A model generated the notes under the pieces. That model searched no databases. It had not been told where the DNA came from and saw only the letters and a program-made list of their open reading frames with translations. 64,000 nucleotides of DNA from Candidatus Zhuqueibacterota bacterium. Lineage in GTDB: Bacteria > Zhuqueibacterota > Zhuqueibacteria > Zhuqueibacterales > Zhuqueibacteraceae. The translations under genes were made by a program, and so were the position numbers. The first letter of the stretch is position 1, and the number at the start of each line of letters is the position of its first letter. The stretch lies in NCBI GenBank assembly GCA_022616415.1, contig JAKEEU010000194.1, forward strand, positions 1 to 64,000. Direction: 5' to 3'. This document shows, one piece after another, positions 1,654-15,471 of this stretch.

Positions 1654-4600
1654 TCAATATGGCAGGTCAGGACAGGCAGGCTCGTAGGGTATGTCCGCAC
1701 CGATGAATCGGTTCCTTTCATCTGACGTCAGGTTGCGTCTGGTCTTTTCACAAACCATATTAGCCAAAATCTCGGTGCGGGTAATCCAAATGCGGATCGT
1801 CCCGTCATCGCTTCCTGAGATGAGGCTTTGGCCATCCGGGCTAAATGCCACCGAATTTACTGCCCTCTCGTGGCCACGCAGAATAATCGGCCGGGCATCT
1901 TGATGGAAAAAATCCCAAAGTCGAACGGTTTGGTCCGCGCTACCCGATGCAAGTGTCCGGCCATCGGCGTTAAAGGCCACCGATAAAACACCCGCATCAT
2001 GGCCATCCAGTACGATCGGGCTCGCGTCTGGCTCATGCAAATCCCAAAGTCGGATGGTTTTGTCGGCGCTTGCGGAGGCCAGCAGACGAGAGTCCGGGCT
2101 GAATGCCACTGCATGGACGCCACTGTTGTGGTCACCGAGAGACGTGGGATCATTAGGAAATTGGCGCGAATCCCACAACAGCACACTTCCATCGCCGCGC
2201 CCCGCAGCCATCATTTCGCCGTTTGGACTGAATGCCACCGACTCAAAACCGAACTCGCGCCCATAGAAGATTTTTGGACTTTCGGTTGGCTGATACAAAT
2301 CCCAAAGTCGCACGGTCCAGTCGAGACTGCCGGAAGCCAACCACTGTCCATTCGGGCTAAACGCCACAGAGAGCACGGCAGATTCGTGCCCTCGCAAAAC
2401 TTTCGGTTCGGCATTGGGCGTGTTCAAATCCCATACTCGTATGGTATGATCAGCACTGCTCGATGCTAATTTCCGGCCATCCAGGCTGAACGTTACTGAC
2501 TCGACCCCAAAATCATGTTCGCGCAGAATCCGATCGGATTGATCCAATCGCCATAGCCGCACTGTGGCGTCGTAACTGCCGGAGACGAGGGCACGGTCAT
2601 CAGAATTGAATGCAACAGATTTGACCGGGCCGGTATGGCCGTGCAATTCAGTCGGGATCGCTGCCGGCCGGCGCAAATCCCAAAGGCGAATCGTGGCGTC
2701 GGAGCTGCCGGAGGCCAGCATGGCGCCATCCGGACTGAATGCAACGCTCCTCACCCAACCTTTGTGGCCGCGTAGAACGACGAACGCGGAGTCAGGTTGA
2801 TTGATATTCCATAAGCGTATCGTTCTGTCCTCGCTCGCTGAGGCAAGTTGCTGGCCGTCCAAACTGAATGCGACCGACAAGATCCGGCCTTGGTGGCCAT
2901 GCAAAATTTTTGGAACCGCATTTGGCCGTCCCAGATCAAATAGACGCATGTCCGCATCGCCGCTGCCAATGGCCAACTTCTGCCCATCCGGACTTAACGC
3001 CAAATTTTTGATCTCGCGCAAGTGTTGATAAAAAATCTTTGGCGGAGCGGTTGGATCATGCCAATCCCAGAAACATACAGTTCCATCGGCGCTGCCCGAC
3101 GCCAGGATTTTTCCATCCGGAGAGAATCTTATTGCATTGATCTCACTTTTGTAGTTGAGTTGAATGCTGCCGCCATGATCGAGTTGGCCGAGGTTCCAGA
3201 GCCGAATCGTTCCGTCAGCGCTGCCCGAGGCGAGAATTTTGCCGTTCGGGCTGAACGCGACGGCTCTCACTTCATTCGTATGGCCTTGCAGGAGCATGGC
3301 CTCAAGGTTGGGTTGATCCGGATTCCAAAGCCGCACGATGCCATCCGCGCTGCCGGCCGCCAAAATTTGGCCATTCGGGCTGAACGCGACAGACCTGATG
3401 GCGCTGAATTGGCCGCGCAGAACGGCAGGGGCGCGATGGAGTTGGCGCAAATCCCACAGTCGCACCGTGCCGTCCTCGCTGCCGGAGGCGAGAAACCGGC
3501 CATTTGGACTGAACGCCACGCTCCAAACCCAATCCGCATGGCCGGCCAACACGGCGCTGAAATAACGAATGCTCAACACTTCGCGCAAGGCCGCATCGAC
3601 TTGCGGCAAAGCATGAAGCTGATGCCGCTGATCGAAAAGATAAGCTTGACGCGCCAGCAATGCGCCGCGTTCGTGCTGCCCTTGGCGGATTTGGCGTGTG
3701 GCTTCGGCAACAAGTGTTTGCACGATGGAAAACCAGCGCAAGCGATCCGACTTCGATTTTTGGAAATAGGCAAATGTGGCTGCTCCCAACGCGGCGAGAA
3801 ACAAAACCGCGAACGCCGTTAAAAAAAGCCGTAGCCGTTGCAATTGGCGTTGGCGCGCCACTTCCTTATCGTGCTCGGCTATGACGATGGCCGCGCGGCT
3901 GGTCCGCACCAACTCGCGCAGCGCGGCATCGTAACCGAGATCCACGGCATCCGGACAGGTGAGCCACCGTTCGGCCTCGCGCAATTCAATTTCGTCGAGC
4001 AAGCCGCCGCTGCCGCTGCCAAGGCGCATCCATTCCGTTGCCTTGGTTTCCAACCGCCGTCGCGTTTGCTCGGCCTCGCGCCGCTCCGCAAGCCAACCAT
4101 TGAGGGTGGGCCAACTGTTAATGAGCACTTCGTGAGCCATGTCCACTTTCCGGCCACCTTCCCCTTCTTCGCCGCTGAGGGTGAGCAAGCGATTGTCCGT
4201 CAAGTGGCGCAAGGTCCGTTCAAACAACAGCGGATCATCGTCAGTGGAGCGGAGAGCAGCGACCGGTTGTTGGCGGCGCGTATCCGCGCGGCCCTCGCCA
4301 AATTGCACCAAGCGCAGGAAGATACGCCGGGCAATGCCGCGCTGATCTTTATGAAGTTGGGCCAGCGTGGCATCGGCTTTGATAGTGAGCGCGACGGCGA
4401 GGCCGCTCCGTGTACCCTCGCCTATATGGTCGTAAACGTAGCGAGGAATAAAACGCCGCTGTTTCTTTTCCCAGAGCAGCGCCATGGTCTCCTGCACCAA
4501 AGGCAGCACGCCGGGCTGCTCATCGGCTTCCACATCAGCGAGCAAACGCTCTAACAGTCCGATTTCGAGATAGACGCCAAGATTCTCCGCGGGTTTGGCA

Positions 4601-5613
4601 ATGGCATCCAGCAAAGCCTCGCCAGCCAGTGGCGCGATCTCAAGCCGTTCGCTGGAGGCCACGGGCCAAAGCGCGGTGCGCATCAAATCGTTGTGGAAAA
4701 AATCGGAGCGCATGGTGAGCACGAGAAAGCAGTTTTCCACTTGGCGCAGCGCTTTGATGGCGGCAATGAAAGCGGTCTCAACCGGCTTGGGATTTTGGGT
4801 GAACAATTCCTCGAACTGGTCGATGATGAGCAGAAGATGTTTTGCCGAAAAGTTTTGCGTCAGTATTGTTTTACCAAGCGCCTCGGGATTGGAAACGCTC
4901 GCGAGAGGGATGTTCAAGGCTTGCGCGAGCGCTGACATCGGGGCGTTGCCGGGGCGCAGAGTTTTGATCAGCCACTCTCCCGGCTGTTGCTGGTGGAGGC
5001 CGGGAATGAGGCCCGCAAAGACAAGCGAGGATTTGCCAGAACCGGAAGGGCCAATGACGAAGAGATAGTTGTGATGGCGCAGCCGGCGGCGCAACATTTC
5101 GATCTCTTGCTCGCGGCCGAAGAAATGGCGCGCGTCGTGCTCGGAAAAAGGCACCATACCGGGATAAGGGCAGGGAATGCGCTCTGGCTCCGGCTCCGGT
5201 TGGTCGAGCAAGTGGCGGAGACGCGCCATCTCGTTTTCCCAATTGGCCTCGCCGGTGCAATCTAAATGAACGAGGAATTCAACGTGCAGCGGCAGCTCAC
5301 AGGGTTGCAAGAGAAGAGGGATCAGGCGATCACGCCGTTCCGTAATGCTCGCGTGAGCAACAAGCTGCTCGCCGAAAATGGACCACTCGTCGTTCACAAA
5401 GGCGGGACTGAAAACCAACAAGGTGTAACGGCTGGTGGTAACGGCGCGCTCAAACTCTTCAACTATCGGCGCGCCGGGACGAAAGTCTTGCCGGGTGATG
5501 AGACGTTCAGAAGTCAAACCGAGCGCAGGCAGGAGATAGCCGCGAATCCATTCCTGGTCCGCATCGCTGCTGAGAATGAAGAGATCGTGCTTGTGCTCGG
5601 TTGGTTCGATCAT
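1654..5613 (-). CDS. TIR - nSTAND NTPase - transmembrane helix - 14x WD40 protein
   Basis: N-terminal TIR-like region (HDLFILSSDADQEW...LLVFSPAFVNDEW); PYPGMVPFSEHDARHFFGREQE and Walker A GPSGSGKSS; hydrophobic FLTAFAVLFLAALGAATFAYF; 14 WD40 repeats counted in the translation. Confidence 0.9.
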   Translation of the reverse strand: MIEPTEHKHDLFILSSDADQEWIRGYLLPALGLTSERLITRQDFRPGAPIVEEFERAVTTSRYTLLVFSPAFVNDEWSIFGEQLVAHASITERRDRLIPLLLQPCELPLHVEFLVHLDCTGEANWENEMARLRHLLDQPEPEPERIPCPYPGMVPFSEHDARHFFGREQEIEMLRRRLRHHNYLFVIGPSGSGKSSLVFAGLIPGLHQQQPGEWLIKTLRPGNAPMSALAQALNIPLASVSNPEALGKTILTQNFSAKHLLLIIDQFEELFTQNPKPVETAFIAAIKALRQVENCFLVLTMRSDFFHNDLMRTALWPVASSERLEIAPLAGEALLDAIAKPAENLGVYLEIGLLERLLADVEADEQPGVLPLVQETMALLWEKKQRRFIPRYVYDHIGEGTRSGLAVALTIKADATLAQLHKDQRGIARRIFLRLVQFGEGRADTRRQQPVAALRSTDDDPLLFERTLRHLTDNRLLTLSGEEGEGGRKVDMAHEVLINSWPTLNGWLAERREAEQTRRRLETKATEWMRLGSGSGGLLDEIELREAERWLTCPDAVDLGYDAALRELVRTSRAAIVIAEHDKEVARQRQLQRLRLFLTAFAVLFLAALGAATFAYFQKSKSDRLRWFSIVQTLVAEATRQIRQGQHERGALLARQAYLFDQRHQLHALPQVDAALREVLSIRYFSAVLAGHADWVWSVAFSPNGRFLASGSEDGTVRLWDLRQLHRAPAVLRGQFSAIRSVAFSPNGQILAAGSADGIVRLWNPDQPNLEAMLLQGHTNEVRAVAFSPNGKILASGSADGTIRLWNLGQLDHGGSIQLNYKSEINAIRFSPDGKILASGSADGTVCFWDWHDPTAPPKIFYQHLREIKNLALSPDGQKLAIGSGDADMRLFDLGRPNAVPKILHGHQGRILSVAFSLDGQQLASASEDRTIRLWNINQPDSAFVVLRGHKGWVRSVAFSPDGAMLASGSSDATIRLWDLRRPAAIPTELHGHTGPVKSVAFNSDDRALVSGSYDATVRLWRLDQSDRILREHDFGVESVTFSLDGRKLASSSADHTIRVWDLNTPNAEPKVLRGHESAVLSVAFSPNGQWLASGSLDWTVRLWDLYQPTESPKIFYGREFGFESVAFSPNGEMMAAGRGDGSVLLWDSRQFPNDPTSLGDHNSGVHAVAFSPDSRLLASASADKTIRLWDLHEPDASPIVLDGHDAGVLSVAFNADGRTLASGSADQTVRLWDFFHQDARPIILRGHERAVNSVAFSPDGQSLISGSDDGTIRIWITRTEILANMVCEKTRRNLTSDERNRFIGADIPYEPACPDLPY

Positions 5614-5706: not shown

Positions 5707-8346
5707 TTATTGCGCTAAAAAGCTGATTCTCACGCCGCCAACGATGATGAAGTCCCCCTTGGTCGAGGGAGTGGCTTTATCATGAAATACATAACCCATT
5801 CCACCATGCAGCCAGATATTTGATAGGATCCGCCCTCCCATCAAATTCCCGATGTTGAGCGCGCCGGGAGAAAGCGCAATCCATTGCCGGTCAAGATCTC
5901 CGCTGGCAGAAATCATGGGGAATGCCACAACTCCCGAGGCCCCGCTTTCGCCGTAATTGAATAACGTCACCCCAACGCTGCCCGTGCCTTTTGAAACCGA
6001 TGAAGTGGAGTTTAAATCCACTCCGAAATTGATGTTAAAGTCTTTGTTAACGCCTGGTTTGGGAGGAATATCTTCGACCGTGGTCGTATCATACCGGAAA
6101 CGCTCAAAGAATGCCGTGGCAACTCCAAGACGGCCGGGAGCTTCGTACTCAACGAAGACCGAGCCGCGGTACAAGCCCTTGTTCTTGAAGACGTCGACTT
6201 CAGCTTTCCAGAGGGAGGAGGAGTCTACCGGTTGCAGCATGAAACACTGATCCGGTTGCATGCTTAGATTCGGCTGATCTGGTTGACTAGTCGTCTGCGG
6301 TGGTTCGACTAATAGCGTAACCCCGCGAATTGGGTATTTATTAGGATTATCCAATGCCACGAAAACAGTTCTCTCCGGCCCAAGTACAGGACTTCCAACG
6401 ATACTTCCCAAAACCTCCCTTGCCCCCGCTGCTAATTGTGTCGGGCTACGTTTGTACCCAAGGATTGATGCGCTTGTAATGTTCCCAAAAGTCTCAATTG
6501 TAGCATCAGTCTCAAAAGAGCCAATCATATCAGAGTTTATCTCCGGGTCTCCGGATTTAAGTCCCCAGCCAATCTGGAATGCGCAAAGGACGTTATAGTT
6601 GGCCTCCATTGCTGAAAGGAAATGAGAGGAGAAAGTTGTCAGTCCGCAAAGTGTGGAGTAGTTTTCTGTCTTGTTGGCGGCCACATTCTGCAGGCTCGAA
6701 ATCGCGTGAGCATTAAGCGTAGATCCTGATGAAGGGGTGAAATCACTATTTGTAAGCTGCATGGTGTTTAACAAGTCGCCAGAATTATCCCCCGCGTGTA
6801 TAAAGATAATTCCCCGGTTAAATCCCCTATTGTTAATCCCCGTATAACGGCTCCAAAGACGTTTATTAGAATCAATAGAATCAGGTTGATTCAACGCCGC
6901 AGTGTAGGTAGTTTCGATTTGTGCTGCTGACAGATTCAACGTCCCTCCGCCCGCGGCAAATTGTCCTGACGCAAGTGTGTTCCCAATCCAAAAGAAAAGC
7001 AGCCCGCAGTGATTCTCAAAGTCAGTCTGATTGGCTGATCCAAGATCTCTCCTGAGAAAATCGTTGATTGCAGTCCTGAGTTGCGCTAGAGTTTTTGTAG
7101 CGCCGGAACCGTCATAGAGAGTTTCCAACAAAATATCCTGCTGCCGGAATCCGCGGCTATTGATAAGAACATCGCGCACACGATTTGCCATACTGAGGTG
7201 ATGGTTGTAATCGGGACTATGGCCAACGACAATCACGGCATATCCTGCAGGTTGGGTGGATGAAAGAGTGAAACTGGAACCTGAAGGTCCTGGCGTGCAG
7301 TTGGCAGGCGGCGGTGCAAGAAAAATTGATGCCGGGGCGGTACTCGCGTACAAAAGCTGTTTTGAGTTTTTATCCGAGCTGCCGTAAGAGTCGAGAATAA
7401 CTTTTGTGGTTTCAGCCGTAGCCTCGATTTGATAGATGCCGGACGGTCCTGCTTGAAAATCGGCGCTGAATTTTCCACTGCTACTATCGGGTAAAACAGT
7501 GATGGCGTCCTTCTTGCGGTCAGGAGCAGTAACACTAATTGTGATTTTCGCGCCACGCGCATAATCTGGCGTAATCTGACCCAATACCCGTAGCGTCTTC
7601 GGATCCTTCCGATAACGGAAACTATCCTCGGCTGAAACCGTCAGGCGGAAGGGGCTGCGTTTCACCTCAAAAAAAATAGGCTCGGCAATCACCGAATCAG
7701 GACCACTGGTGGCGTTTTGCCTTTGCCAAACAGCGACGGCTTGCCACCGCCCATGTTCCGAGAAGACGTGATTGATATGGTACAAACCTTTCTCATCGCC
7801 TTTGGTTTTTAGGATGGTCTTTCTGTGACTGGGTGATATTAAATTGACCTTGATTGAAGCAGCAGGTTTTGCCGGGATAGCCCTGCCTTCCATACTTTGT
7901 GGAAGGTTCTTATCGAGCTGACCACTCGGCGGAACATCCACGACAAGCTTGGGGCTTTGCTCTGTCGCCTCGACAATATTAAGCCAGGCCTGCAAAGTAA
8001 CGGTTGTATCGGCGCCGGAGGCGATTATGAAGAGCCGGTGCCTGCCGATGTGCTTCTCATTTCTGGCGCTCACTTTCAGGCGAACGAGTACCGGCGTGGT
8101 AACTTGAGTCGCTTGGTCCTTCGGAAATTGAATACTCAGGACGGGATCGGCTTCTGATTGCGCACGAAGATTTACCGGTATCGCCTTATTCCCTTTTGCA
8201 AATACCTCGACCCAATAATACGCCGTATCTCGAGCGGTGATGGTGCGGGAAAAATGGTCAATGGACAGACGTAGATCCGCCCCTTCTACACCATTTCGAA
8301 GGCAAAACAGCAGCGCGAGGCTAACCCATCTTAAACTTATTCTCAT
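5707..8346 (-). CDS. Secreted multidomain protein with an apparently inactive caspase/C13-like domain
   Basis: N-terminal signal-like segment; GYAVIVVGHSPDYNHH...GFRQQDI...LLFFWIGNT...GIIFIHAGDNSGDLL resembles a C13/caspase-hemoglobinase fold with altered catalytic positions. Confidence 0.6.
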   Translation of the reverse strand: MRISLRWVSLALLFCLRNGVEGADLRLSIDHFSRTITARDTAYYWVEVFAKGNKAIPVNLRAQSEADPVLSIQFPKDQATQVTTPVLVRLKVSARNEKHIGRHRLFIIASGADTTVTLQAWLNIVEATEQSPKLVVDVPPSGQLDKNLPQSMEGRAIPAKPAASIKVNLISPSHRKTILKTKGDEKGLYHINHVFSEHGRWQAVAVWQRQNATSGPDSVIAEPIFFEVKRSPFRLTVSAEDSFRYRKDPKTLRVLGQITPDYARGAKITISVTAPDRKKDAITVLPDSSSGKFSADFQAGPSGIYQIEATAETTKVILDSYGSSDKNSKQLLYASTAPASIFLAPPPANCTPGPSGSSFTLSSTQPAGYAVIVVGHSPDYNHHLSMANRVRDVLINSRGFRQQDILLETLYDGSGATKTLAQLRTAINDFLRRDLGSANQTDFENHCGLLFFWIGNTLASGQFAAGGGTLNLSAAQIETTYTAALNQPDSIDSNKRLWSRYTGINNRGFNRGIIFIHAGDNSGDLLNTMQLTNSDFTPSSGSTLNAHAISSLQNVAANKTENYSTLCGLTTFSSHFLSAMEANYNVLCAFQIGWGLKSGDPEINSDMIGSFETDATIETFGNITSASILGYKRSPTQLAAGAREVLGSIVGSPVLGPERTVFVALDNPNKYPIRGVTLLVEPPQTTSQPDQPNLSMQPDQCFMLQPVDSSSLWKAEVDVFKNKGLYRGSVFVEYEAPGRLGVATAFFERFRYDTTTVEDIPPKPGVNKDFNINFGVDLNSTSSVSKGTGSVGVTLFNYGESGASGVVAFPMISASGDLDRQWIALSPGALNIGNLMGGRILSNIWLHGGMGYVFHDKATPSTKGDFIIVGGVRISFLAQ

Positions 8347-8356
8347 TTTACATCTC

Positions 8357-9781
8357 CTAGTTGAATTTACAAACCCGAATTCTATCGGTTAAAAGCATAT
8401 AGATGCGACCTTCCTGCGCATTCATGCGGGCCAGGAAGCTGGCATCACGTGGACTGTCTACAAATGGAAGTTCCAGATACCTTTGCAATTTCCAATCGGC
8501 GAAGCTGTAGTAAAGCAAAAAAGCGGGATTGTCGCCGGGATCGCCCGTGCAGGCTGCCACTGCTAATACTCCCGGATGCCTATTTTGTGGATCAACAAAG
8601 CCCGTCACGCTTCTCGGCGAGAGCGGGCTTTCCATCCCAGGAATCCCAACAGATATTTCAATTGTTCCGTAACTGAGTGGATCAATTATGACGATCGTGC
8701 CTTTTGCGGTAGTTACATACAGTTTGGAATCATGCCCAACCCATAAATCTTTTGGTCTATCATTTAACTGGATTTCTTGCAGGCGTGATTCAGTGCTGAT
8801 ATTGAAAATCGATATGGAGTTTGAGCCTTCATTGGCACAAAACAAGCGCCTGGCATCCGGCAACACAGCCAATCGTCGGGGGTTCAGTCCGGTCCGCATA
8901 TTGGTTCGTGCGGGATCGCATTTTCCCACTCTGAATTTGAAAATCGCCTGGGAATTGCCGTCAGCGATATAGACTGCGTCCCTGCTTGGGTCTGCTACCA
9001 CTGCCTGGGGTTTGGCAATGGCGTCTGTTTCGCATGCAGCAATGAGAAAGCTGCCGGTCCACAAGAATACTTGAACTCGACCAAACAAGGCTGATGAGCA
9101 TACATAAATATAAGCTGAATCATTTGGGGCCGTGCAGACTACAGCCATGTCGCTTGTTGGATTGTATATTCTATGAAAATCAATCTCCTCATCGTTCGCA
9201 TTAAATACTCTTAGAAACCCTCCGGCCGCCACGAATTTGGTTTTCCCACAGAAGCCTATTGCCGTTGGCAACGAAAAAGAGACCGGGGCGTTAATATTAG
9301 TTTCTCCAAGGTAGTTACAATCTAAAGGCAAGGGATACGCCAGCGCCGAATCTGGCCATGAAAGATCAGACCAGGAGTTGTCCCGCATGGCGGTCACTCG
9401 ATAGGTATAAAGTTTATCACCAACGATCCCTGTTGTCGTGGTTGAATCAATCCAAACCTCCCGCCGAGGAGGAGCAGGATAAATGGTATCAATCTTAGTG
9501 CTATTGAGGGCTTGCCGAAAGAGAACAAAACGATCTACATCGATTCGCTGATCACTTTCGACAGGATAAGTCGGCCACTTCCATTTGAGTGTAATCTTGC
9601 CATAATCGGTCACGGCGTCGAACTCAAAAGGATCATGTTTTTTCGAGTTCTCAGAGTCAAACGGATTGTCGTGGCCGGTGCATCCCAGCATAGCCCAAAT
9701 CAACATCGCCGCCGGCGCCTGGCGCCAGCTTTGACGCGAGCACCGGCTCATCGGAATTTGCAAAACCAAGCTTCTCATCAC
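8357..9781 (-). CDS. Putative lipoprotein with YncE/NHL-like beta-propeller
   Basis: Lipobox-like MLGC; repeats such as VVADPSRDAVYIADGNSQAIFKF, LAVLPDARRLFCANEGSNSISIFN. Confidence 0.6.
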   Translation of the reverse strand: MMRSLVLQIPMSRCSRQSWRQAPAAMLIWAMLGCTGHDNPFDSENSKKHDPFEFDAVTDYGKITLKWKWPTYPVESDQRIDVDRFVLFRQALNSTKIDTIYPAPPRREVWIDSTTTTGIVGDKLYTYRVTAMRDNSWSDLSWPDSALAYPLPLDCNYLGETNINAPVSFSLPTAIGFCGKTKFVAAGGFLRVFNANDEEIDFHRIYNPTSDMAVVCTAPNDSAYIYVCSSALFGRVQVFLWTGSFLIAACETDAIAKPQAVVADPSRDAVYIADGNSQAIFKFRVGKCDPARTNMRTGLNPRRLAVLPDARRLFCANEGSNSISIFNISTESRLQEIQLNDRPKDLWVGHDSKLYVTTAKGTIVIIDPLSYGTIEISVGIPGMESPLSPRSVTGFVDPQNRHPGVLAVAACTGDPGDNPAFLLYYSFADWKLQRYLELPFVDSPRDASFLARMNAQEGRIYMLLTDRIRVCKFN

Positions 9782-11160
9782 TTCACCTCTTTCTCAAACA
9801 CCGGCTTTCTGGGATTGATGAAAGCCGCATTGGTCCAAAAGCCCAGGCTGGCGACGGCGACTAGCGCGGCGGAATTTCGCAACATCTCGTTACGGTGCAG
9901 GCGGCTATAGTTATTATCCGCAGCGCGACTGGTCAACGCTTGCTCGTAGTCACTCTTACCGTTGCCAGCGGCTTGCCACATCAGCACGGCCGGAAGAATG
10001 CCCGCCACGGTTGTGCGCAGGCTCCATTTCCGCCACGCGTAAGGCACTCCTTCAAATCGCGCCTGATATCCGAAGTGTCGCGCGATGTGTACGACCGCGC
10101 TATCGGCCAGGCTTTTCAGGTCACGCGCCTGCAAGCGTTTGCTCAACACCACCCGCTCGCCGGGATTGAGCCGCAGCGAGAGATCGAGAACAAAGAGCTT
10201 GCCCTCCTTGCTCCCGCTGCCGCGAACGATATAGGACGGCAATTTGTAAAGCGCATCGATGTCGGGGGGGTCGCCGGGACGCGGCTGCCATTGGGCACTG
10301 AACGCCGCATAGCGTTTGGTGCGAATCTCCGGACAAAGCGCGATGAAACTTTCAAGATGCTCGAGAAACTGCTTCGACCATTTCGGCTGTTTTTTCGCCG
10401 GCTCGAAATCCAGCGGTGACAGCGCCAAAATTTGATTCTCTGGCGTAGGCGGATCGAGATGACAGTGGTCTTTTAAAAATTGGCGCACCTGCAACGATTG
10501 CAGCACACGATTCGTGTGGCTTTGGCCGGTCACCAGTTTTTCGGTGATAACACCGGCAACGATGCCGCGATCGTTCAATACCGGGCTGCCGGATTCGCCG
10601 CCCTGCACTGCCCTGGCGGTAATATCGAACGCGATGTTGTAATACGGATTCTGGCTAGACACAATAATCCCGCGCGTGATTTGAAGTTCAAGCTTGCCCG
10701 CGGAATAGCCGAGGGCATGCACAGGCGTACCATCGAATTGCTGCCGCTTGCTTACCGGTAGAACACGAAAATTCGAGATACTGTTGCGGTCGATATATAG
10801 AACCGCGAGATCGTCGCCTTCCCGGCGGTCGAAACAAACCTTGTTTTTGGCCACCCGAATCGTGTCGAGTGTGCCATAAGGAATAACCCAGATGTGCGGC
10901 GCCAGCCTCCATCCAACGTTTGAGTCGGCATAGGCAACTACATGGCGATTGGTGAGCAGCGCCAGTTGCGTTTTCGTCGAATCGATGATAAAGCCGGTGC
11001 CTTCGTCACCGACGCCTTTCCCTGCCGCTTGCCAGGAGACGCGAATCTTGACAACCGCTGGCAGCGCTTGCTCAAAAAGGCTTTGTTGCTCTTGCGCGCC
11101 GGCGAGGGAGGCCAAACACAAAAGCGCCAACCCAACCGCCAGCCAAACTTTAGGCTTCAT
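9778..11160 (-). CDS. Secreted trypsin-like serine protease with C-terminal membrane segments
   Basis: Signal peptide; LLTNRHVV (His), EGDDLAVLYID (Asp), GGESGSPVL (Ser); C-terminal hydrophobic segments. Confidence 0.85.
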   Translation of the reverse strand: MKPKVWLAVGLALLCLASLAGAQEQQSLFEQALPAVVKIRVSWQAAGKGVGDEGTGFIIDSTKTQLALLTNRHVVAYADSNVGWRLAPHIWVIPYGTLDTIRVAKNKVCFDRREGDDLAVLYIDRNSISNFRVLPVSKRQQFDGTPVHALGYSAGKLELQITRGIIVSSQNPYYNIAFDITARAVQGGESGSPVLNDRGIVAGVITEKLVTGQSHTNRVLQSLQVRQFLKDHCHLDPPTPENQILALSPLDFEPAKKQPKWSKQFLEHLESFIALCPEIRTKRYAAFSAQWQPRPGDPPDIDALYKLPSYIVRGSGSKEGKLFVLDLSLRLNPGERVVLSKRLQARDLKSLADSAVVHIARHFGYQARFEGVPYAWRKWSLRTTVAGILPAVLMWQAAGNGKSDYEQALTSRAADNNYSRLHRNEMLRNSAALVAVASLGFWTNAAFINPRKPVFEKEVK

Positions 11161-12304
11161 GGTGAACTCCTTTGAAATATCGCCCGGTTCGTATGCGCTC
11201 CCTCAACGTAACGTACAAAATGAAAATCTGAGCCAAAACTCCAATCAACAGTCCAATCTTCGCTTCCAAATGCGAGAGCGCCGAGGATGTCTGATTCTCT
11301 AATTTTTTTCCAACACCGGCGTAGAAAGTGCTCGTTTCCCCGCGCAGCGTGGCGTTCAATCGACCGGGGCGCAAAGCGCGGAGTTTGCGCAGCTCGAAAC
11401 CGCTGAGGTCATTTTGACGAATGTGAACGAGACCTTGCAATTCCGGTATCTTTTTGCCGTCCACGCTGAAAATGACACACTCCACTTCTGATGCCGTAGC
11501 ATGGCCATTCGTAGCTTGTTGCGTGTCATAGAAGTTGACCTGCTCGACGCGCATGGGAAGCTCGAGCAGATCTTCGTTCACGGGATCCAGATTCAGCAAG
11601 TCATAAAAGATCAGCGCCCGGCTGCCGCAGCCATTGATTGCAGCGTTCCTTGTGTCGGCGCGCGGCCGGAATCCCAAGCAATCATGCGACAGCGCAATGG
11701 TTTGGGCGGCATGGCGAGCTTGCAACTGGTACTCCTGGATTTGAACTCGGATGGTATCGCTCAACATTGCAAGCCGCAATTGCGTTTGCCCGCCGCTTAT
11801 CTCCAAGTTGAATTTGTGGTGCAATTGGCCGCGAGGCCACAGCGCGATTTCGTTGGCGCCGGTTACCGTCAAATCGGATATCTGCAGTCTCGAGCTTAAA
11901 AATACAAGCTGAGCATCCGGCCCGGGGTTCGGCGTGAAAAGCAGGTCGGTCGAGCCGATCTCCTGCACACCGGCCAATGGCATCGCCGGCCCGCATTCAA
12001 TTGGCCAGAAAGCTTTTTCCACCTGAATGGAGAAAGCGTCCAACCCCCGAATGCCCAACAAAGAAATCGGCGCCGCCTTAAGCAGCGACCGGCCCGGTAA
12101 TTGGGCCCTGGCAGGACGGAACGCCAATTTTTCTGTGGCAATCTCCAAATCCACCACCGCCGGTGGATGATAAAAGTGGAGCACGATGGCGGCTACAACC
12201 ACGATGCCGGTGAGGAAATAAAACGCCTTCATCAAAACCAGCCGCTGGCTTGATTTGACCACGGCTTTGGCGGGCGCTGGCGGATTTTTTAGTTTTTGGG
12301 GCAT
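11150..12304 (-). CDS. Membrane protein of unknown function
   Basis: N-terminal and C-terminal hydrophobic helices; overlaps neighbouring genes on both sides. Confidence 0.6.
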   Translation of the reverse strand: MPQKLKNPPAPAKAVVKSSQRLVLMKAFYFLTGIVVVAAIVLHFYHPPAVVDLEIATEKLAFRPARAQLPGRSLLKAAPISLLGIRGLDAFSIQVEKAFWPIECGPAMPLAGVQEIGSTDLLFTPNPGPDAQLVFLSSRLQISDLTVTGANEIALWPRGQLHHKFNLEISGGQTQLRLAMLSDTIRVQIQEYQLQARHAAQTIALSHDCLGFRPRADTRNAAINGCGSRALIFYDLLNLDPVNEDLLELPMRVEQVNFYDTQQATNGHATASEVECVIFSVDGKKIPELQGLVHIRQNDLSGFELRKLRALRPGRLNATLRGETSTFYAGVGKKLENQTSSALSHLEAKIGLLIGVLAQIFILYVTLRERIRTGRYFKGVHHEA

Positions 12305-13062
12305 GGCGTGAAAATGGGCTTATGATAAAAAGCATACGGCCTGAATAAGTCAAGCTCTCCTCCGGACTTCAAAAATATCTTGCCTTTTACAATCAACCTA
12401 TAAGTTCCTTCCGGCGCAGGCTTCTCGCCGATCCGGCCATCCCATGAAATGATGAAAGGCGCGTTACCGGGATAAAACTGCTTGGGACTGATGAATACAC
12501 TTTCGTTCCGATCCTCCGGTTGAATCACTTGCAAGATCGAATAAATGAGCTCGATATCCTGATTCGGCATAAACTTGAACTCGTAATGACTCAACGTGTC
12601 CGGCGTGTTGCCATTCCAAGCCACCGCCGAGATATGTTGTATACCATTGACATCCTGGCGGCCTTTGCCGACGACTGACCACGCTTCGACCCGTACTGGC
12701 TGCAAGGTCGTGTTGAGCAGACCTATGCACTGAAAAAAGCCAATAGACCATCCACTGGCGCCAGGTTTCAGCGCGTACAGCAATTTCTCTTGCCGGATTT
12801 CGACAGCAAGCGGATAGCCATCCGGAACAAAGAATTGGACAAAGCTGGTATCTTTATGCTTCGGCTGGCTGCCCTTCTTCAAGCTCGCGTGAAACGCCAA
12901 AATCTCGACATCGAGGCCGGCAACTTCCTGACGCGGCATAACCAGCTTGTACTGCCCTTTCGGGTCAACGTACAAAACCGCGTCGCCTTGCGCCTGCGCA
13001 TAAGCCATTGCCGGAAGGGATATGGCGGCGATCAACATGGCGGCAAGTTTTCTCGCTTTCAT
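12289..13062 (-). CDS. Secreted protein of unknown function with FlgD-like C-terminal segment
   Basis: Signal peptide MKARKLAAMLIAAISLPAMAYAQ; PFIISWDGRIGEKPAPEGTYRLIVKGK. Confidence 0.6.
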   Translation of the reverse strand: MKARKLAAMLIAAISLPAMAYAQAQGDAVLYVDPKGQYKLVMPRQEVAGLDVEILAFHASLKKGSQPKHKDTSFVQFFVPDGYPLAVEIRQEKLLYALKPGASGWSIGFFQCIGLLNTTLQPVRVEAWSVVGKGRQDVNGIQHISAVAWNGNTPDTLSHYEFKFMPNQDIELIYSILQVIQPEDRNESVFISPKQFYPGNAPFIISWDGRIGEKPAPEGTYRLIVKGKIFLKSGGELDLFRPYAFYHKPIFTPCPKN

Positions 13063-13296: not shown

Positions 13297-14526
13297 TTAT
13301 CGGCGTGGGAGTGGCCCTTGCAAGGCTTGCACGAGACGGTCGAGCTGGCGTTCGGCGCGGAGGGGATGAGTGAGGTAGATGGTGGTGAGCATATTCAGTC
13401 GCGCCGGCAGCCGTTCTTCATCTATCGGCGCGATCTTCACGGGCAGCAAACGATACGTCCCTTCCTGGATGCTCATCGTCTGCCCCAAAACATTTTCAAA
13501 GTTTGTCCAATTGTCTGCCAGATAATCTTCCGACAGGATAATTATTGTGCGCTTGGACTGTTTGATGCCCCGCTCGATATTTACCACTCTGGCGACGCCG
13601 GGTTCTTCGACCTCGCCAGAGATAGCAAGCCGTAAACCGGCGCTTTGCAAATGTGGCACCAGTGCTTTCCACACATAGATGGTGTCGGCGCTCTTGTCCA
13701 CATAACTGATGTAAGCATCAAACCGGAAGCCGTCCTCGTCTTTCGGCACAACGCCATGTTGCCCGCCCCGGTAGAGCGCGATGGGAAAGTTGTTTTCCAG
13801 GTCGGCCTTGAAAACAGGATGCTGGTTGGGTTGGTCGCCGGTGACACGAGGTTGAAGATACTCAAAGAGATCGAAGATGCGAATGAAGCCGTCATCGCTC
13901 GCAGCGCCGCCACGCAGCCCATTCAGCAGGTGTTGGGTAAACAAACCATACTCGGCGCCGGGCAGCACATAGGAATACTCGTCACTGCGCGACGAGGCCA
14001 AAATCACGCGGCCCCGGCCGGACTTGAGCGCCTCGTAATAGTTTTCCGATAAACCGGGTTTGATCGTGGGCGCCGACAAATTTTTGGGTTGACCGATGCC
14101 GCCGGCGTGGCAACAGTCGAACACTACGACGGCTTGACAAGCTGGAATGTCGCGAAGAGCTGTGGTAAATTCAGCGCCAGAAATGGCGGTTTGCGCAACG
14201 CTGTGGTCGGAGCTATCGGTGACGTCAACGGGCAGCAAGTATTCATCCGCGTAGGCGCCGGTTTCTATGCGGCCGCCGTGGCCGGAAAAGTAAAGGAAAA
14301 CCGTTGTCTCTGCATTGCTGCGTTGTGCAAGATTGGCAAGGGCTTGGCGCCAAGCTGCCAGCGTCGCTTGGCCGTCAGAAAGCAACTGTACGTTTTCCGC
14401 GTGATAGCCACAGTACAGCGGATCGATCAACAAATTGTAGATGGCCCGCGCGTCTTGCGTTTGCGGCAGCGTTCGAATGTGCCGGTAATCAGCGATGCCA
14501 ATCACCAGGGCGTGAGCGTTGTCCAT
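13297..14526 (-). CDS. Caspase-like (C14) peptidase fused to C-terminal TIR domain
   Basis: ALVIGIADYRHI, FLYFSGHG (His), VVVFDCCHAGG (Cys); C-terminal FRFDAYISYVDKS...IIILSEDYLADNWTNFE TIR. Confidence 0.9.
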   Translation of the reverse strand: MDNAHALVIGIADYRHIRTLPQTQDARAIYNLLIDPLYCGYHAENVQLLSDGQATLAAWRQALANLAQRSNAETTVFLYFSGHGGRIETGAYADEYLLPVDVTDSSDHSVAQTAISGAEFTTALRDIPACQAVVVFDCCHAGGIGQPKNLSAPTIKPGLSENYYEALKSGRGRVILASSRSDEYSYVLPGAEYGLFTQHLLNGLRGGAASDDGFIRIFDLFEYLQPRVTGDQPNQHPVFKADLENNFPIALYRGGQHGVVPKDEDGFRFDAYISYVDKSADTIYVWKALVPHLQSAGLRLAISGEVEEPGVARVVNIERGIKQSKRTIIILSEDYLADNWTNFENVLGQTMSIQEGTYRLLPVKIAPIDEERLPARLNMLTTIYLTHPLRAERQLDRLVQALQGPLPRR

Positions 14527-14529
14527 AAT

Positions 14530-15471
14530 TCAATACGGAATATATTCACTCGCACTCGATCCATCGTCGTACAGATCAACCACTGCATACGCCGGCGGAA
14601 ATTCCTGATACGCGCCGTCCCACCAGTTGCCGGAGACCGCGCCGTTGCACAAATATTTGACGCCAAGATACCTCACTTCATCCTGCAAATGAATGTGCCC
14701 GCTCAAACAAACCTTGACATTGGGGTGCTGCCGGAAAACGTCTTTGATCCGGCGCGCGTCGATGTGCATCCACGCGCCGGGGACTTGCCAGTTGCCGTTC
14801 TTTTCGTTGTCGCCATCGAAAAAGGAGCAGAAGCAGATGATGGGAATGTGCGAGAGCACACAAACCGGCGTAGCCGTCGGCGTTTTTTTCAAATCTTCTT
14901 GCAGCCACGCAAATTGCTCTTCATCGAGCTTCGCAACATAACCACCCTTCGCGGCGTGCGTGCTGTCGAGCACGATAAAGTGCCAGCCGGCTTGATCGAA
15001 ACTGTAATAGCGCGTCGTGAGGCCAAACGCGTCCATCGCCCACTGCTTGCCGTAAAGCTGATCTTGCTTGATCAGCTTCTTCTCCATTTTCCAGCCCCAC
15101 ACGTCGTGGTTGCCGATGCAATGCACCACCGGCAGGGCGCATTGGTTTTTCAGCACGCTTTGCCAAATCTGCCATTGCGTTTTGGTGCGCGCCTTATCCG
15201 CTTTGAGCGCGTCCATAATTGAATCTCCGCCGTTGAAGATGATGTCAGGTTTATCGCTCAAACTTTGCGCGTGTTGCAGTGCACGCGCCATGCCCTCCGG
15301 CGCAGATTGCTCCGGCTGAACGTGAACGTCGGTGAGATGCGCGATGCGCAAGGCGCGCCGGCGATTTTGTGGGCGATTCGCAAAGGCATCGAATGGCGTA
15401 AACGCGGTTGCACCCAATGCTGCGGCACTCGTGTTGCGCAAAAAATCTCTTCGCGTCATTCCCTTTTTCAT
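14530..15471 (-). CDS. TAT-exported calcineurin-like metallophosphoesterase
   Basis: RRDFLRN twin-arginine leader; HLTDVHV, NGGDSI, GNHD, LSGHIH motifs. Confidence 0.9.
   Translation of the reverse strand: MKKGMTRRDFLRNTSAAALGATAFTPFDAFANRPQNRRRALRIAHLTDVHVQPEQSAPEGMARALQHAQSLSDKPDIIFNGGDSIMDALKADKARTKTQWQIWQSVLKNQCALPVVHCIGNHDVWGWKMEKKLIKQDQLYGKQWAMDAFGLTTRYYSFDQAGWHFIVLDSTHAAKGGYVAKLDEEQFAWLQEDLKKTPTATPVCVLSHIPIICFCSFFDGDNEKNGNWQVPGAWMHIDARRIKDVFRQHPNVKVCLSGHIHLQDEVRYLGVKYLCNGAVSGNWWDGAYQEFPPAYAVVDLYDDGSSASEYIPY

Follow-up and report, generated by a model that had tools for sequence, protein, structure and literature searches.

A caspase–TIR protein and a TIR–nSTAND1–WD40 protein as candidate halves of an apoptosome-like two-gene system

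The 64,000-nucleotide stretch of DNA analyzed here (the window) encodes a caspase fused to a C-terminal TIR domain. We regard this protein as probably one half, the executor, of an apoptosome-like system of two genes for defence or cell death, whose halves would be coupled by unlike TIR domains. Four observations carry this reading: the architecture of the two proteins, the conserved pairing of their genes, the swapping of proteases on a constant TIR and the asymmetric distribution of a glutamate between the two kinds of TIR.

The caspase–TIR protein and its distribution

The caspase–TIR gene lies on the minus strand at positions 13297-14526 and, on the basis of its open reading frame and Pfam matches, encodes a 409-residue predicted executor. 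A preliminary description of this DNA had bounded the reading frame correctly and had recognized the caspase fused to a C-terminal TIR; the Peptidase_C14 and TIR matches both exceed the curated Pfam cut-offs. The Peptidase_C14 domain covers residues 5-247 (13786-14514; E 5.5e-24) and presents the p20 fold match and His/Cys dyad characteristic of peptidase family C14. The dyad motifs, which had been described as intact, are indeed present as YFSGHGG (His83, codon 14278-14280) and FDCCHAGG (Cys139, codon 14110-14112, assigned as the nucleophile by the usual D-x-C-H motif) and proved invariant when six orthologs were aligned. Because the dyad is both intact and invariant, the protein is likely to have protease activity. 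The effector-side TIR domain (residues 268-403, 13318-13725), matched by Pfam TIR and TIR_2 at residues 271-398 (E 4.6e-12 and 2.1e-11), holds the segment SEDYLADNWTNFENVL, in which Trp340 is followed at the W+4 position by Glu344 (codon 13495-13497). On the same strand, a gene for a calcineurin-like phosphoesterase whose N-terminus is twin-arginine-like (TRRDFLRN) occupies positions 14530-15471 and ends 3 bp before the caspase–TIR start codon.

The caspase and TIR matches are about 20 residues apart, and the protein contains no added ligand-binding domain. The short interval bears on two ways in which the chain might work alone. The caspase could cut its own linker and thereby free an active TIR, as the preliminary description had proposed; the window linker does contain Arg253 and Lys263, and orthocaspases are believed to cleave after basic residues (PMC8283722), but neither the sequence nor the length of the linker is conserved across orthologs and no conserved basic cleavage site is apparent in it. 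The proposal of autoproteolytic release is thus unsupported, and we deem it the most improbable of the readings discussed here. Alternatively, the fused caspase might be activated by a cyclic ADP-ribose isomer produced by the TIR, in the way that N7-cADPR activates the caspase of type IV Thoeris, for which the cited summary describes a link between a TIR product and a caspase-like protease (PMC12847820). The absence of an extra ligand-binding domain in so short an interval argues against this second reading, which would also leave a partner TIR–nSTAND1 gene and the trypsin and CHAT swaps described below unexplained, and we hold it to be very unlikely.

Full-length orthologs number 16, comprising the window protein and 15 cyanobacterial proteins that are 51-67% identical to it. 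They include a protein encoded on plasmid2 of Calothrix brevissima (BAY66897.1, 51% identity) and others from Symploca and further cyanobacterial genomes (identity up to 67%); being common to all 16, the fusion is not a chance arrangement. The window aside, no full-length caspase–TIR protein was found at E <= 1e-20 among the 82 genomes of its own phylum. The 67% match in a cyanobacterium and the absence from close relatives together suggest, at the level of sequence, that the gene was acquired by horizontal transfer. Phage records yielded no caspase–TIR relatives. Viral contigs were searched with the window protein, the sensor TIR and the TIR alignment, none of which found a relative; the caspase–TIR alignment recovered only distant caspases (20-26% identity) from the viral contigs. 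A decaying caspase–TIR gene was also observed in Symploca (L006:5322-6113), in which the caspase survives up to about residue 232 and the TIR is mostly deleted, with the downstream TIR–nSTAND1 gene intact.

The partner gene, its conserved pairing and the exchange of effectors

The second half of the putative system is a 1319-residue TIR–nSTAND1–WD40 protein (1654-5613, minus strand), a predicted sensor and scaffold, the gene for which the preliminary description had overlooked. It is composed of an N-terminal TIR (residues 10-141, 5191-5586), an nSTAND1 NTPase domain (residues 149-532, 4018-5169; E 5.8e-97) and an array of 13 WD40 stretches at about residues 687-1297 (1723-3555). The sensor-side TIR is matched by the TIR of the caspase protein and scores above the TIR_2 cut-off, and in it Gly81 replaces the catalytic Glu, with a Glu one residue later. 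A P-loop (GPSGSGKSS) and an acidic motif (IIDQFEE) can be read directly in the translation, and the protein thus combines the nSTAND1 domain, P-loop and C-terminal repeats that characterize nSTAND1 sensors. Its gene lies on the same strand as the caspase–TIR gene, 7.7 kb downstream and with five genes between. Given this partner, the TIR of the executor is most likely a coupling domain and not an independent toxin.

The neighbourhoods of all the caspase–TIR orthologs were fetched and annotated. A second TIR gene is present near the caspase–TIR gene in all 16 cases, downstream and on the same strand in 15 of them, and a downstream TIR–nSTAND1 gene occurs at 14 of the 16 loci, 12 of which show a gap of 16-457 bp. 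The gap is 3.1 kb in Calothrix, with one TPR gene in between; in one Symploca contig (G082 C56) the caspase–TIR gene is followed by a lone 160-aa TIR and then by an nSTAND1 gene, and the exception is G641, in which the second TIR gene is a divergent TIR–FGE-sulfatase gene. The sensor of the Symploca contig (L031:2827-6176) seems to have been split into the 160-aa TIR reading frame and a separate nSTAND1 reading frame, with another nSTAND1 fragment upstream of caspase–TIR. The pairing also holds in reverse: an effector-side TIR gene was found near all 16 close TIR–nSTAND1 matches (E <= 1e-100) in 293 cyanobacterial genomes, the neighbours being 13 caspase–TIR genes (one decayed), one CHAT–TIR, one trypsin–TIR and one lone TIR. 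As in EAD-type systems, the same domain, here a TIR, is therefore found on effector and sensor within one gene cluster.

It might be argued that the two genes of the window are chance neighbours, the caspase–TIR protein acting alone and the TIR–nSTAND1–WD40 gene being unrelated to it. The window's genome is TIR-rich, with 44 matches, and for the window alone the density of 44 TIRs in 10.3 Mb gives an estimated probability of about 7% for a second TIR within 8 kb. The recurrence of the pairing in every ortholog examined nevertheless refutes chance for the family, and we consider such an explanation very unlikely. Some of the 44 TIR_2 matches of this genome are in long proteins and some are clustered (contigs C266 and C27), and the genome looks rich in TIR systems.

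Between the two halves lies a cassette of five genes for predicted exported proteins (5707-13062, minus strand), located at 12289-13062, 11150-12304, 9778-11160 (a trypsin-like protease with a signal peptide), 8357-9781 (a lipoprotein-like beta-propeller) and 5707-8346. A second genome of the class (G027, L082:4282-11560) has all five with their order preserved, and the 19.5 kb fetched around that cassette contain no TIR, caspase or nSTAND1 gene. Because the five exported genes are present together without TIR genes in that genome, they were rejected as a part of the system, and from their gene content they are probably an independent unit. The 879-aa exported protein encoded at 5707-8346 (minus strand) has a central stretch, GYAVIVVGHSPDYNHH..., that by eye is reminiscent of a caspase or gingipain fold devoid of catalytic residues; neither Pfam nor BLAST against the caspase supports this resemblance.

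The effector-side TIR is not restricted to caspases. A CHAT domain is fused to the same TIR in G471 (L059; 68% identical to the window TIR) and a trypsin-like domain to an effector-side TIR in G639 (L084), and in G613 the effector-side TIR stands alone, near a patatin-like gene. The effectors exchanged on a constant TIR (caspase, CHAT and trypsin) are all proteases, and the pattern is that of EAD-type exchange. Conversely, the nearest relatives of the caspase, encoded on proteobacterial plasmids, carry EAD1 in the place of the TIR and belong to GTPase systems with a second EAD1, which in Skermanella is located on GAP1. Both the swapping of effectors with retention of the TIR and the presence of EAD1 in its place are how coupling domains behave. 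The locus of the lone TIR (L083:5496-12960) comprises a TIR–nSTAND1 protein, a patatin-like phospholipase, a TPR-S protein and the lone Glu-bearing TIR, and is possibly a lipase version of the sensor/effector TIR system.

Two TIR clades and the role of the effector-side TIR

The effector-side and sensor-side TIRs form two separate clades (support 99/98), which indicates that the split between them is old and that the asymmetry of the glutamate goes back to a single ancient difference that both sides have kept, and not to many independent events. The residue at the position of Glu344 is Glu in 18 of 19 effector-side TIRs and Gln in the remaining one (the trypsin fusion), against Glu in none of 21 on the sensor side (Ile in 8, Ala in 4, Val in 3, Gly and Thr in 2 each, Phe and Ser in 1 each); in three sensor-side TIRs, that of the window among them, a Glu is shifted one residue later. 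The preliminary description had stressed a Glu at W+4, and in the window protein both residues are in place; across the family it is the Glu that is kept, while the Trp varies (W, Y, M, I, V). Glu344 is retained among the effector-side TIRs (18/19) down to 28% pairwise identity and, among the 19 columns invariant in the effector-TIR proteins other than the trypsin fusion, it is the only one never found on the sensor side. This retention ties its function to the effector side, although that function need not be NADase activity.

Drawing on STAND, EAD and apoptosome biology, we propose that the C-terminal repeats of TIR–nSTAND1–WD40 would sense a trigger, that the NTPase domain of the sensor would then drive oligomerisation, as in other STAND proteins, and that the Glu-less TIR of the sensor would make a heterotypic TIR–TIR contact with the TIR of the caspase–TIR protein. 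Caspase domains crowded together in this manner could be activated by proximity, and the ensuing proteolysis, with or without loss of NAD+, would lead to a presumptive outcome of cell suicide or phage defence. The effector-side TIR would most likely serve mainly as a coupling domain, in the manner of an EAD or CARD. We count in favour of coupling the pairing in both directions, the effector swaps, the EAD1 relatives, the two clades, the Glu344 pattern and the TLR-like sequence, and against it the separation of the halves in the window by 7.7 kb and by five genes that look unrelated, as well as the fact that effector-side and sensor-side TIRs are no more alike within a locus (32% identity) than across loci (30%), in contrast to published EAD copies, which are paralogous. 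The distances in the effector-side and sensor-side TIR sets are correlated in a mirror-tree comparison (0.49), a value that we do not count as evidence of contact because co-inheritance alone would give it.

The same asymmetry admits a dual-output executor, in which the sensor's Glu-less TIR, itself inactive, would be the template on which the Glu-bearing TIRs assemble into an active NADase, and proteolysis and NAD+ use (or a signal) would occur in one complex; this amounts to the proposal of the preliminary description extended by the sensor. We entertain this reading tentatively. The 18/19 versus 0/21 distribution of Glu344 speaks for it, as do Trp340 of the window protein, which is as in NADases, and the precedent of plant sensor-type TNLs, which are also without the Glu and act by way of a signalling-competent TNL paired with them in the genome (PMC7282519). 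Moreover, Calothrix-type members have Arg and Asp/Glu at the positions of Arg151 and Asp167 of AbTir; the window-type clade, however, has Trp and Ser there, the trypsin–TIR relative has Gln for Glu, and Trp340 is variable in the family. In its more specific form, which we judge somewhat unlikely, the asymmetric pair would consist of a conditional enzyme and its recruiter, and one trigger would release both NAD+ cleavage and caspase-like proteolysis; if true, a bacterial counterpart of the paired TNL receptors of plants and of the animal apoptosome would be united in one complex.

The glutamate itself has to be read with caution. A Glu at this position is found in >70% of TIRs overall and in >90% of those of TLR1/2/6/10, and its presence does not follow enzyme activity (PMC7075850); the TIRs of TLR4 and MyD88 are devoid of NADase activity (PMC7282519). 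In AbTir, the residues that matter are S140, R151, D167, V193, W204, E208, R215 and Y238, of which Arg151 and Asp167 are both required for its NADase activity (PMC11374754). Glu344 occupies the C-helix position of AbTir E208 and SARM1 E642 that is typical of NAD+-cleaving TIRs, a position shared with TLRs that are not known as NADases. The window protein further agrees with AbTir at S (Ser274), W and E, but the positions of R151 and D167 are Trp286 and Ser303 in it and its close relatives, a departure that is not a strict definition of inactivity; this mapping was read from sequence, with the conserved V in the A helix and G in the BB loop as anchor points and AbTir itself outside the alignment. 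To our knowledge, other NADase TIRs may also be without an Arg at the R151 position. Calothrix-type members do have the Arg and the Asp/Glu, and the trypsin–TIR relative, with Gln for Glu, shares the same gene arrangement.

The predicted structure of the domain has the topology of a TIR, and Glu344 falls within its predicted C helix (model residues 78-88), at a confidence (3 sequences, mean pLDDT 59) too weak to place side chains, as was that of the full-length caspase–TIR model (4 sequences, mean pLDDT 49). A Foldseek search with the TIR model (mean pLDDT 59) returned TLR10, TLR1 and MyD88 among the first matches, at a TM of about 0.45, and by sequence the solved structures closest to the TIR family are the scaffold TIRs of TLR1/6 (E about 1e-18 to 1e-19), ahead of AbTir (1.7e-6) and Roq1 (2e-4). 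TLRs are likewise the first matches of the lone TIR of L083, which looks like an NADase, and to some extent TIR sequences in general therefore lie close to TLRs. An enzyme would explain the strong retention of Glu344 no less well than an adaptor. From these comparisons, it is possible, though we rather doubt it, that the window protein cleaves NAD+, and we estimate the chance to be higher for Calothrix-type members. Of the earlier proposal that one chain has both protease and NADase activity, the protease part is likely, as reasoned above, and the NADase part is neither confirmed nor contradicted. The 'catalytic' Glu alone is in any case insufficient for annotation as an NADase.

Comparison with known systems

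Caspases with TIR domains and coupling through EADs are already known (PMC3501461, PMC7159879, PMC8195603). The EAD-coupled conflict systems include GAP1/GASH GTPase systems with caspase-EAD1 (PMC7159879, PMC8195603), and the system proposed here resembles them in having a related caspase (42-46% identity) with a C-terminal coupling domain, a second copy of which is found on a protein of the same operon. It differs from them in that the coupling domain is a TIR, a fold that is often enzymatic, in that its copies come from two separate clades and in that the core protein is a TIR–nSTAND1 sensor and not GAP1. The portions consulted of a study of prokaryotic metacaspases name TIR as an associated domain and present caspase-NACHT-WD40 single chains, a one-piece counterpart of the split system of the window; the conserved division into effector-TIR and TIR–nSTAND1 and the Glu asymmetry are not described in those portions (PMC3501461). 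Type IV Thoeris, as far as the cited summary goes, likewise brings a TIR together with a caspase-like protease in a single defence pathway (Rousset et al. 2025, cited in PMC12847820), but there a TIR cyclase and a nucleotide-activated caspase are separate proteins of one operon that communicate by a diffusible nucleotide, whereas here TIR and caspase form one chain that is paired with a STAND sensor. The paired TNLs of plants (PMC7282519) share with the window system a Glu-less sensor TIR that is genomically paired with a Glu-bearing TIR, although here the NTPase is found on the sensor only and the partner is a protease. In the literature searched, which lay mostly outside subscription journals, no conserved protease–TIR / TIR–nSTAND1 module is described in which one TIR has the Glu and the other lacks it.

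If the proposed coupling is true, bacteria recruit caspases to NLR-like sensors by means of TIR–TIR contacts, and the TIR logic of animal and plant immunity and the caspase logic of apoptosis are joined in one system, which, being a compact two-gene system, makes the question of whether a TIR is scaffold or enzyme addressable by single substitutions. In the APAF1-caspase-9 apoptosome and in the inflammasome, a STAND NTPase with WD40 repeats and a caspase are joined by a shared interaction domain. The pair of the window is analogous in combining a predicted STAND NTPase–WD40 protein and a caspase with a shared domain, and differs from the animal apoptosome in being bacterial and in having a TIR in place of CARD and nSTAND1 in place of NB-ARC.
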